From Methanobacteriota archaeon (GTDB taxonomy: Archaea; Thermoplasmatota; Poseidoniia; Poseidoniales; Thalassarchaeaceae), in assembly GCA_004195715.1 (NCBI GenBank), contig PSPX01000027.1, positions 1 through 34,697 of the forward strand: DNA of 34,697 nucleotides, read 5' to 3'. Below, one piece after another: positions 14,649-18,346 of the stretch; within the stretch, counting starts at the first letter, position 1; each line of letters opens with the position of its first letter. Below the pieces are notes generated by a model. The model ran no database searches. It saw only the letters and a program-made list of their open reading frames with translations, and had not been told where the DNA came from. The position numbers were made by a program, and so were the translations under genes.

Positions 14649-14670
14649 ACTAATTAACGCGATGCGAATT

Positions 14671-16272
14671 ATGGCCAAGCATCGTGCTGGAGACCGTCGA
14701 ATAGTCAGTATAAGCATACCAGAAGACCTCGCTAAGAGGCTCGACAGGAGAGTAGGCAAAGGTCGAGAGAAGGGCCGTTCCGCAACCATCTCCAGAATGA
14801 TCCAGGGTTCGCTTGATTCGGAGTCTGAGGAGCGTACGGGGGAGCCAGCAGCAGCAGCCCGCAGCGCTAGGGCGAAACCCGATGCCATCAGGATAGAGAA
14901 GGACACGATGGGGGAGGTTGAGGTCCCAGCAGACAGGTATTACGGGGCTCAGACCGCCCGATCCCTAGTCAATTTCGATATCGGAGAGGACATCATGCCC
15001 CGTTCGGTCGTCCGCGCTTTCGGTGTTCTCAAGCAGGCCGCGGCCCAAACCAACGTTGATCTTGGCCAGATGGACCCCAACATCGGCTCGTTGATCTCAG
15101 CGGCCTGTGATGAGGTAATCTCAGGCTCTTTAGACAAGCACTTTCCTCTGAGGATATGGCAGACAGGCTCGGGCACCCAGACCAACATGAACGCTAACGA
15201 GGTAATTGCCAACCGAGCCATCGAGATTTCCGGTGGCACCGTGGGTAGCAAGACCCCAGTGCATCCAAACGATCACGTCAACCGGGCCCAGTCGAGCAAT
15301 GACACCTTCCCAACGGCCATGCATATCGCCGCAGCCGAGGAGACCAATCACCGATTGTTGCCCGCAGTACGTCATTTACGGGGTGCTCTGACTAACAAGG
15401 CGCGGGACTTTAGGAGTACAGTGAAGATTGGTAGGACCCATTTGATGGACGCAGTCCCACTGACCCTAGGGCAGGAGTTCAGCGGCTATGTTTCGATGCT
15501 CGACGCCGACATCACACGCATTGAGAGCGCCATGGGAGATTTGCTCGAACTGGCATTAGGTGGGACCGCGGTTGGGACCGGACTGAACACACACCCTGAG
15601 TTCGCTGATACAGTGGCGGGACACATTGCGGACAGCACTGGGATGCCTTTCGTCAGCGCCGACAACAAGTTCGCACAGTTAGCAGCTCACGATGCGCTGG
15701 TAGCCGCCTCGGGAGCGTTGAACACACTTGCAATTTCTCTGATGAAGATAGCCAATGACATCAGATGGCTCGGTTCTGGTCCAAGATGCGGCTTTGGGGA
15801 ACTCTCACTTCCTGCTAACGAGCCCGGATCAAGCATAATGCCAGGCAAAGTCAATCCCACTCAGGCAGAGGCGATGACGATGGTGTGCTGCCAGGTTATG
15901 GGCAACCACACCGCTATCTCAGTTGGAGGCAGCCAGGGTAATTTTGAACTCAATGTGTACAAGCCGATGATAATCCACAACTTCCTACACAGTGTACGCC
16001 TGCTGACGGACACTTGCCGCTCATTCACGGACAAATGCGTGGTGGGGCTGGAGGCTAACGAGGACAGGATTGCAACCCATCTCGAGAACTCGCTCATGCT
16101 GGTCACTGCACTCAATCCTCACATCGGCTACGACAACGCCGCGAAGATAGCTAAGAATGCGCACTCGAAAGGAACCACACTCAGGGAGAGTGCTCTCGAA
16201 CTCGATCTTCTGACAGATGAGCAATTCACTAAGTGGGTCAAAGCCGAGGACATGATTGGGCCACGAGACTGA
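14671..16272 (+). CDS. fumC: Class II fumarase with an N-terminal ribbon-helix-helix domain
   Basis: A 533-residue fusion. Residues about 9-48 ([20 protein letters not shown]...[12 protein letters not shown]) have the beta strand plus two helices of a ribbon-helix-helix (CopG/MetJ-like) DNA-binding domain. A polar Ala/Arg linker follows to about residue 68. The rest, about 464 residues, is a full-length class II fumarase that interconverts fumarate and malate in the TCA cycle. It begins [23 protein letters not shown] and contains [19 protein letters not shown], the [21 protein letters not shown] block, [20 protein letters not shown] and [11 protein letters not shown]. The TGSGTQ and HPNDHVN versions point to fumarase rather than aspartase. 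There is no stop or frame change between the parts, and no ATG or GTG fits a separate fumarase start. 14671 is preferred over 14662 because of TATA spacing. The DNA-binding role of the N-terminus is inferred. Confidence 0.9.
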
Positions 16273-16429
16273 AGGAACTGAAACTCCAATCGATTATTCC
16301 AGAGCGAAACGCTCCACAAACATTGCAATAAAATCTTGGGGGCCGATCACAGGTGGGAGCAGGCAGGAGAGGTTCCGCACATGGGGGAGCTTCCCCCCTC
16401 CTGTTCTACTCCGCAGGGTCCGGGTGTCC

Positions 16430-16449
16430 CCCGGGCCTCTCGGCCCGGG
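16430..16449 (-). other. Perfect 8-bp stem with GNRA-type loop (minus strand)
   Basis: The stem CCCGGGCC/GGCCCGGG has a four-base loop that reads GAGA on the minus strand. This is a GNRA tetraloop, a typical RNA feature, while the plus strand would have an ordinary TCTC loop. It lies in the 3' part of the proposed RNA. Confidence 0.6.
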
Positions 16450-16502
16450 TTTCTCCGGGTAGACTCCTCCGGGACCTCTAGTGCCCCTTTGTCGCGTTCC
16501 GT

Positions 16503-16535
16503 TTCCTTCCCCTTCCTTTCGTCCAGTTCTCTCCA
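16503..16535 (-). repeat. Purine-rich repeat copy 1
   Basis: On the minus strand: TGGAGAGAACTGGACG, then AAAGGAAGGGGAAGGAA. This is the last (most 3') of five related units in the 16.3-17.2 kb region. It has a single GGAGAGAACT motif. Confidence 0.7.
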
Positions 16536-16587
16536 CTTCACTCATCTTCTTTCTCCAGGGGCGTTTCCCCCCCCTTCGCGTTCTCCA

Positions 16588-16642
16588 TTTCCTTCCCCTT
16601 CCTTCCCCTTCCTTGCGTCCAGTTCTCTCCAGTTCTCTCCAC
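16588..16642 (-). repeat. Purine-rich repeat copy 2
   Basis: On the minus strand it has two tandem GGAGAGAACT motifs, then GGACGCAAGGAAGGGGAAGG and a further GAAGGGGAAGG. On the plus strand, 16591-16612 is a perfect mirror repeat built of CCTT and CCCC blocks. Confidence 0.75.
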
Positions 16643-16701
16643 GGTCCGATACAGCTTCCTCCACGGATCTCTCCGCCCTCGTCCACTCATGTTTCCCTCC
16701 G

Positions 16702-16746
16702 CTTCCTTCCCGTTCCTTCCCCTTCCTTGCGTCCGGTTCCCGTCGG
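16702..16746 (-). repeat. Purine-rich repeat copy 3 (diverged)
   Basis: On the minus strand it carries GGACGCAAGGAAGGGGAAGG as in copy 2, but the GGAGAGAACT part is replaced by CCGACGGGAACC. Confidence 0.6.
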
Positions 16747-16896
16747 TTTTTCCGCTTCGTTCCTCACATCGCTTCCAGGTTCGTTCTCCTCCCCCTTCCA
16801 CGCGTATCTCCTCGGGATAGTACTCTGCCTCGGTTGTGTTTTCCCCGTTGCCGGTTCGGTTACGTTTTCCTCAGCTTCCTCCTCCGTTTCCTCCAG

Positions 16897-16951
16897 CTTC
16901 CTTCCCTTTCCTTCCCTTTCCTTTCGTCCAGTTCTCTCCAGTTCTCTCCAC
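16897..16951 (-). repeat. Purine-rich repeat copy 4
   Basis: On the minus strand it has two tandem GGAGAGAACT motifs, then GGACGAAAGGAAAGGGAAGG and a second AAAGGGAAGG. It is nearly identical in layout to copy 2 but lies about 310 bases away. Confidence 0.75.
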
Positions 16952-17007
16952 TCTTGTCCTCTTCGGTTCTCCCGCCGTCTTCCCGCCCATATGGCGTTCC
17001 GACTCTT

Positions 17008-17040
17008 CTCCCGTTCCCCTTCCTTGCGTCCGGATCCCGG
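17008..17040 (-). repeat. Purine-rich repeat copy 5 (diverged)
   Basis: On the minus strand: CCGGGATCCGGACGCAAGG then AAGGGGAACGGGAG. It shares the GGACGCAAGGAAGGGGAA core with copies 2 and 3, and is the first unit in the predicted transcript. Confidence 0.55.
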
Positions 17041-17147
17041 GTTCTGCCACCGCTCTCTCGCGGCTCGGTTTCTGTGGCCCGCGGGTCGCGCCGAAGCGCC
17101 CCCACACCACTTCAGAGAAGCGGCAAGGTTAGCAGGGAGAGATGGAA

Positions 17148-17155
17148 TACATAAA
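17148..17155 (-). promoter_or_regulatory. TATA-like element upstream of the RNA candidate
   Basis: TTTATGTA on the minus strand, preceded by a purine-rich GGAAGG that could serve as the TFB-recognition element. It is 66 bases beyond the stop of the beta-propeller gene and points into the repeat region. There is no other AT-rich stretch in the following 700 bases. Confidence 0.4.
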
Positions 17156-17220
17156 CCTTCCTAGGACAGACTCGCAGTCTACCGGAAACAAGGGTCTCAA
17201 ATGTTAATTTCCATTGGATT

Positions 17221-18346
17221 TCACACACCTCTGAGGCGCCTCAAACGCTCCATCAACTGGCTTCTACGCTCGATATCGTCAGTTTCCTCCACGATTCCTC
17301 TGAGGCGCCTTGAAAGAAACGCTTCTTCAATCAGATGAATTCTCCCACTGGAGTCGCCCAGGGCGATGTTGCCATCTGTTGATTGGAGGTGCCTTATGCG
17401 GTGATAGTGCCCAAGTTCTAGGAGTATGCTACCATCATCGGCTTCCAAGACAGTAATGCCCGACGTCTCACCGTTCCATCTCGATCCCCAGATTCCGCTG
17501 CCATTGGATACAGAAGGGCCCATTGCAAGTGATTCAACAGCACCTGGCGCCGTGTCTACCCAGCCGCGACTTGAGACAATCTCGCCCGATTCGTGCCCTG
17601 AGAACCAGGTCTGTCCGGAGCTGCAGATTGCTCGAACAGGCGAAGACCGCTCCTCGCCAGGCTCATCAACTGAATCGGTCACCACGCAGACCCTGCCGTC
17701 AGAGTGCCCGATTAGAAATCGTCCCTCGGAGTCGCATGCACCGGAGGTCACAGGACTATTTCCCTCTAAAGGGAGATGCGATGCGGCCTCACCGCTTCGG
17801 ATTCGAAGTAGCCCACAACGTGGTCTACCTAGTCCCAGCAGCACCCCTCCCTCGTCGTGCAGACCGAGTCCAGTGCTCCTGAAGCGAACCCTCGCTGTCA
17901 AACATCCACACAGTCGACTCGGTGTAGTCTGAAATCTCAATCTCGTACACAGACGAAGCCGCCCAAACGACTCCTTCGCAAACTTGGACGAAATCACTCG
18001 CTCCCTCCAGCGGACGACTCCAGATGATATCTCCAGTGCCTGCGTCGAGCGCGTGTAGGTCCGAGGAGGCTGCCGCGTAGACGCGACTATCAATCATAGC
18101 GATATCACTAATCGGTCCGTTCACCTCGACTCTCCACCGCTCGTTCCCAGAATCTACCGACCAGCAGGCCAGAACGCCCTCCTGCGAGCCTCCCAACAAG
18201 TCATCACCGTCAATCCTCAGAACGGTGCAGGCGCTGCCGAGCTCGCGCTCAAACGAAGAGACCGCCCCGAGTGTATGCACGACCATGGTGTCAGACCATG
18301 ATGCCCCGCTATCGGGCTTTCGCGTGAACGAGTCAGGCTGAAACAC
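17221..18346 (-). CDS. PQQ/WD40-like beta-propeller protein, frameshifted near 17870-17890
   Basis: Two minus-strand frames make up one protein of about 375 residues. The first part has propeller blades such as GGSQEGVLACWSVDSGNERW and YAAASSDLHALDAGTGDIIW, typical of PQQ-like repeats. The frame then moves by one base in the sequence around 17870-17890 (one G seems to be extra), and the second part continues with GLHDEGGVLLG, FLIGHSDGRVCVV, WFSGHESGEIV and ALGDSSGRIHLIEE. It ends in a basic helix (ERRSQLMERLRRLRGV). The GTG start at 18346 overlaps the end of the carboxypeptidase gene by 14 bases; an ATG at 18286 is the alternative. No signal peptide is seen, so it is probably cytoplasmic, perhaps a protein-interaction scaffold. 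The frameshift may be a sequencing error or real decay. Confidence 0.7.

Follow-up and report, generated by a model that had tools for sequence, protein, structure and literature searches.

Comparative sequence evidence for a large structured non-coding RNA in Marine Group II archaea

Genomic context of the locus

The window analysed here, a stretch of 34,697 nucleotides, comes from a euryarchaeote with a DP2-type DNA polymerase that belongs to Ca. Thalassarchaeaceae, in Marine Group II. A gap of 948 bases separates the fumC stop codon (16272) from the end of the following gene (17221), and an initial annotation made from the sequence alone had proposed that its minus strand encodes a large, structured RNA without coding function. 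The features of the locus, with the basis of each assignment in brackets, are as follows.

14662–16272, plus strand: fumC (fumarase), the convergent neighbour (Pfam Lyase_1 and FumaraseC_C)
17221–18346, minus strand: WD40/PQQ-like beta-propeller gene, the upstream neighbour, frameshifted in the assembly (frame of the relatives and fold)
17175–17188, minus strand: upstream box, TATTTCCRGTGGACTGC in most relatives and TTTCCGGTAGACTG here (precedes the RNA in core genera)
17148–17160, minus strand: putative archaeal BRE/TATA element of the RNA, GAAGGTTTATGTA, consensus GAAAGGTTTATG (sequence and spacing conserved across genera)
16327–17128, minus strand: predicted RNA gene as a whole (homology, covariation and strand test)
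17037–17128, minus strand: 5' domain (pair counts)
16471–17036, minus strand: middle, a fast-evolving helical region of variable length, lengthened by repeats in the genus of the window (alignment and covariation)
16500–17041, minus strand: purine-rich module GGACG(C/A)AAGGAAGGGGAAGG, five copies, at 17031, 16929, 16734, 16620 and 16524 (repeat search)
16352–16470, minus strand: 3' domain, consisting of a CUACCCGG..CCGGACCC stem, an inner hairpin and then the terminal hairpin (pair counts)
16354–16414, minus strand: terminal hairpin, GCGGAG-stem-loop-stem-CUCCCA (covariation in the divergent group; covariance model R2)
16340–16344, minus strand: tail GGCCC, which may clamp to GGGCC at 17080–17076 in the 5' domain (complementarity)
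16327–16334, minus strand: T-rich tract, the likely terminator (read directly; many relatives likewise have T-rich tracts after the RNA)

At homologous loci the gene order is WD40-like propeller gene, RNA on the same strand and then fumC, on which the RNA converges in nearly all genomes; in most of the family of the window, an M32 carboxypeptidase precedes the propeller gene. In the window itself, the propeller gene is divided into two minus-strand open reading frames (17825–18346 and 17221–18093) with a shift near 17880, and a single frame of ~360 aa spans both in the relatives; the split reflects either a sequencing error or a recent pseudogene. AlphaFold modelled the propeller protein with a mean pLDDT of 69, and Foldseek assigned it to the propeller fold. 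This fold is frequent in ribonucleoprotein assembly, yet it is frequent everywhere else too, and the neighbouring protein is a possible partner of the RNA through a link that is positional only. In genus g22, the propeller gene is kept beside the RNA and fumC was not found adjoining it, which makes the RNA independent of fumC. Conversely, the propeller gene and fumC stand together in g13 (L127) and g16 (L131) with the RNA missing between them, pointing to lineage-specific loss.

The RNA gene would have its own promoter, from which a minus-strand transcript is predicted to run from ~17128 to the T tract near 16327. The start is an estimate, placed ~27 nt past the TATA box (+/-4 nt), and the end was set at the T tract. 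The span of 16328–17130 proposed initially is almost exactly the one obtained by comparison, and both of the signals named with it were recovered, the TATA-like TTTATGTA at 17155–17148 and the terminal T tract at 16334–16327. The upstream box sits ~20–30 nt ahead of the TATA box and in several genera is often an inverted pair. Elsewhere in its own genome it is found at chance level (19 matches vs 16 for a reversed control pattern), and it is missing before the RNase P and SRP RNA genes; it was therefore rejected as a general stable-RNA promoter. It could possibly be a site for a dedicated transcription factor or be subject to Orc1/Cdc6 regulation.

In the window copy, purines make up 72% and T 8% of the RNA strand, and the strand skew reported earlier was confirmed, with a GC skew of -0.44 and an AT skew of -0.68 over 16401–16800. 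A length of about 800 nt describes the genus of the window, where the RNA reaches 856 nt, but not the family of sequences in general: most relatives have 577–706 nt, and one genus has an RNA of roughly 0.5 kb, a different one an RNA of roughly 1 kb.

Distribution in Marine Group II

Homologues occupy the same locus in ~122 of the 148 genomes of the window's family and in 11 of its 11 genera, and many of the misses are incomplete genomes. The window DNA used as a query matched 99 of the 148 genomes at the syntenic place, and covariance model R1, built on the 3' domain, matched 98 of them, genus g8 included. Genera g2, g3 and g5 carry a diverged form, which was found beside fumC and by DNA or covariance model R2. 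The latter detects the terminal hairpin across both families. The sister family has matches in 27 of 171 genomes, all from three genera (g15, g17 and g22), and the RNA is absent or undetected in the other 8 of 11 genera; together with its absence from the fumC locus of g13 and g16, this indicates that the RNA is dispensable for some lineages. Outside these two families, neither the class nor the phylum as sampled gave a match; R2 is blind to the core group, so more distant variants could still exist.

A scan of 84,980 species genomes with a pattern of the 5' domain returned 74 stretches. Of these, 73 come from Marine Group II records, that is, Candidatus Thalassarchaeaceae or Poseidoniales, or "Euryarchaeota" whose contigs match the family genomes searched; Ca. 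Thalassarchaeum betae and single-cell genomes are among the 73. The last stretch, in a verrucomicrobial genome (L261), shows no further similarity to the RNA and was set aside as a chance match. Since the RNA is present in MAGs as well as in single-cell genomes, it is not an assembly artefact. As a rule there is one copy per genome. A viral origin was considered and rejected, with no match in viral contigs.

Domain anatomy

The RNA is predicted to fold into several domains: four helices make up the 5' domain, the middle is variable and has many helices, and the 3' domain finishes with the GCGGAG/CUCCCA hairpin. The 5' domain opens with the hairpin GCCGCUUC-UCU-GAAGUGGU, whose consensus is GCCGCUYC-NNN-GRAGUGGU. 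A second hairpin follows, located at 17099–17088 and with the UUCG loop seen initially, and ends in the invariant GCGGGCCACA; next comes a hairpin CCGC..GCGG, and a covarying GCC/GGU helix closes the domain, with C-G replaced by U-A in 6 of 34 sequences.

The middle was initially thought to be unpaired and purine-rich, a view that does not survive comparison: helices run through this region in the relatives, and the repeats are a lineage-specific expansion. Covarying helices in the relatives lie, for example, at alignment columns 141–168, 480–580, 584–619, 597–606 and 643–678, the fold of the middle being uncertain where alignment quality falls. The direct repeats themselves are real, with GGACG(C/A)AAGGAA occurring five times within units ~96–195 nt apart. 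The module GGACGCAAGGAAGGGGAAGG is found in 2–6 copies in the genus of the window (g1) and in 0–4 copies in other genera, with none in g6. A/G-rich loops and this module, multiplied in the window's genus, are the main source of the purine bias. A quite different interior was observed in genus g17 of the sister family (L129 and L201), where many short UUCG hairpins form a chain and CUUCGG recurs about a dozen times, quite unlike the purine-rich interior in the window.

In the 3' domain, G-C, U-G and C-G pairs interchange in the stem among relatives, and the inner hairpin varies in length. The terminal hairpin, which is the GC-rich 3' hairpin described earlier and lies at 16414–16354, is the most widely conserved element and the sole one common to all genera. 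Its exposed C-rich loop is invariant in the core group but has been lost from the divergent one. Ahead of the T-rich end, many genera have a small hairpin and then GGCCC or a wobble variant of it. A tail complement of at least 5 bases is present in 87% of sequences vs 37% of shuffled tails; with an invariant 5' side, this does no more than suggest a clamp between the tail GGCCC and the GGGCC of the 5' domain. Genus g10 lacks the long-range pair GGGCC/GGACCC that RNAalifold put forward, and the tail GGCCC is the better candidate partner. In most of the g3 genomes searched, the 3' part with the terminal hairpin is tandemly duplicated ~300–330 nt apart, as in L125 (1023–1082 and 1324–1383).

Covariation, strand and folding energy

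The alignment and fold were based on 61 full-length sequences of 577–856 nt from seven genera. Covariation was evaluated against a null that kept the tree together with the number and type of substitutions per branch, and a compensatory double change was scored where the two partners of a pair are substituted on a single branch with pairing retained. The stems covary well above slid and shuffled controls. The 150 consensus pairs show 174 compensatory double changes vs 5–15 when partners are slid by 1–3 columns, a count less affected by circularity than the share of pairs formed, which is favoured over the slid versions by deriving the structure from the same alignment. Individually significant pairs (E<0.05) number 16 vs 0–1 in the slid versions. 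An all-against-all scan yielded one pair at E<0.05 and has little power because the changes cluster at the genus level, and the structure-restricted test was used for this reason.

The same pattern is seen domain by domain. In the 5' domain, 46 cells changed on both sides vs 10.6 in shuffled and at most 14 in slid versions. For the 3' domain, RNAalifold applied to it alone missed two covarying helices, so a hand-drawn structure was counted; 16 pairs changed on both sides, giving 46 cells vs 14.7 shuffled, with one slid version (+1) reaching 44 cells because of runs of G and C. The terminal hairpin of the diverged genera contributes 33 double-change cells vs at most 1 when slid.

The minus strand, named initially on the form of its loops, is also the one singled out by the alignment. 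The consensus fold reaches -244 kcal/mol on the RNA strand vs -203 on the opposite strand, and the GU:AC ratio is 798:212 on the former and 257:270 on the latter; the weaker fold of the opposite strand and its lack of a G-U excess identify the minus strand as the RNA. Folded singly, the window copy is no better than its shuffles (z = +0.6), an ordinary value that makes the RNA visible only by comparison; its relatives have z values between -2 and -5, some antisense strands being low too.

Synteny, covariation, strand asymmetry, promoter and a non-coding mode of evolution agree in supporting the large structured RNA proposed at first. At the level of sequence comparison, the gene, its promoter, its strand, its fold and its conservation are established, and the locus almost certainly represents a structured non-coding RNA that is conserved among Marine Group II archaea.

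Comparison with known RNA classes

No known RNA class had been recognised at the locus initially, and a search of Rfam bears this out. The whole window gave no match; when five diverse members were scanned permissively, the sole hit was the lncRNA family Six3os1_3, below threshold (24.8 vs 40 bits). No family of Rfam 15 reached its gathering score, OLE, GOLLD, ROOL, HEARO, raiA, group I/II introns, RNase P, SRP and riboswitches included. The archaeal RNase P RNA (RF00373) and SRP RNA (RF01857) are likewise stable structured archaeal RNAs, but of ~0.3 kb; both were rejected as identities for the locus, which they do not match, and the genome's own copies lie on contigs 35 and 34 of G000, respectively.

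The closest likeness is to OLE, GOLLD and ROOL, which are also non-coding RNAs of ~0.6–0.9 kb with an elaborate covarying fold and a poorly known function. They differ in that they gave no match in the Rfam scans, and in belonging to bacterial or phage genomes, whereas the present RNA is on an archaeal chromosome; its hypervariable interior is a further feature that they do not share. Tan1 of Ca. Thalassoarchaea is similar as an abundant, structured, uncharacterised non-coding RNA from the same archaeal group, but was reported as 229 nt, a comparison drawn from its published description (PMC5069720). No description of the present RNA was found in the open-access literature. As an RNA class, without a relative in Rfam, it is new; as a "large ornate RNA", it has precedents. 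To our knowledge, RNAs of such size and complexity are very few in any prokaryote, and none is known to be specific to an archaeal order.

Possible functions

Presence in g22 without an adjoining fumC, together with a single copy per genome as a rule, suggests action in trans. We hypothesize that a stable, trans-acting RNA would most likely scaffold a ribonucleoprotein particle; its two conserved ends would hold the shared function, and its interior would tolerate large changes in length and sequence. We lean towards this scaffold mechanism as somewhat probable, and hold the explanation as a whole with the same moderate confidence.

A protein-free alternative is a homo-oligomer made of RNA only, a cage or dimer in which conserved hairpin loops kiss between copies. 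OLE, GOLLD and ROOL form such RNA-only assemblies by cryo-EM (PMC12286853), and the present RNA resembles them in its size and elaborate fold and offers, in the core group, an invariant exposed C-rich loop on the terminal hairpin. The loss of this loop in the divergent group, and a chromosomal location with no viral-contig match where ROOL and GOLLD are described as phage- or prophage-borne, make the homo-oligomer unlikely. Slightly less probable still is a trans-acting regulator or sponge, which would pair with messenger RNAs or bind a global RNA-binding protein through its purine-rich modules. The variable number of these modules and the C-rich loop of the core group would suit such a role; however, a module count of 0 to 6, with zero in g6, means that they cannot be the shared function.

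Catalysis would also explain conserved core ends around a variable interior, and the large size and invariant unpaired stretches (GCGGGCCACA) are in keeping with a ribozyme; with no match to an Rfam ribozyme and neighbours that suggest neither substrate nor partner, we regard this as improbable. The near-universal convergence on fumC might be read as the mark of a cis element of that gene, either an antisense transcript or a terminator spacer. Such a role is very improbable for an RNA that is far longer and more structured than it requires, has its own promoter, and is kept in g22 where fumC was not found beside it.

Protein-coding potential and published transcripts

The absence of a plausible protein, as first claimed, held in part: open reading frames of up to 272 aa are present, but none is conserved. 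On the RNA strand, the longest frames range from 39 to 188 aa across relatives with no pattern. Their existence is explained by stop codons requiring T, as the strand is poor in this base (7–20% across relatives). Between sister species, indels of 1, 19 and 20 nt break the frame, and substitutions fall over all three phases, with no codon periodicity.

In a Red Sea study, 13 "mRNAs" accounted for 93% of Marine Group II RNA-Seq reads, all 13 were predicted to encode intrinsically disordered proteins or regions (IDPs), and the 229-nt structured Tan1 ranked fifth (PMC5069720). A T-poor structural RNA read as protein would resemble a disordered sequence rich in K, E, R and G. The locus might accordingly be taken for a gene with a disordered product of this kind, as the Red Sea transcripts may have been read, and both the frame of 188 aa in one relative and the dominance of IDP "mRNAs" among the reads would accommodate it; the frame-breaking indels, the missing codon periodicity and the erratic length of the longest frame leave a protein gene with hardly any credibility. 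The Red Sea set of IDP mRNAs and Tan1 (PMC5069720) may include the present transcript, and it is plausible that some of the IDP transcripts are this RNA, misread. More tentatively, we propose as possible, rather than probable, that an undescribed class of large archaeal RNA assembles into an abundant particle, with protein or of RNA only, in one of the most abundant archaeal groups of the ocean and accounts for much of the published Marine Group II "IDP mRNA" signal.

Non-coding, unmatched in Rfam and conserved in both families of the order, the RNA is a strong candidate for a new RNA-based machine or scaffold of the cell. Marine Group II archaea are uncultured and are the dominant archaeal plankton of surface seawater, and a large RNA conserved in them could be a common marine molecule that genome annotation has overlooked or entered wrongly as genes for low-complexity proteins. 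With the covariance models and the list of loci, it can be tested at once in available metatranscriptomes, and its structure is open to study on RNA made in vitro.

Comparison with replication origins

The region could instead be a DNA element, with the upstream TTCCAGTGGAAA boxes serving as origin recognition boxes (ORBs); they resemble the published motif TCCA[CG]T[TG]GAAA[TC][GA]AAGGGGT (PMC4164010) and form inverted pairs in several genera, ORB pairs being known in the related Methanomassiliicoccales (PMC4153887), but the skew of two long contigs has no inflection where the RNA lies, the best ORB pair on one of them (contig 4 of G097) is ~94 kb away from it, the Orc1/Cdc6 genes lie elsewhere and not adjoining it, and the covariation would be left unexplained, so that an archaeal oriC at this locus was rejected as extremely improbable. 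On that same contig, a strong inverted ORB-like pair at 145910 and 146074, 164 bp apart and near a skew plateau, is a candidate for the chromosomal replication origin of the lineage.
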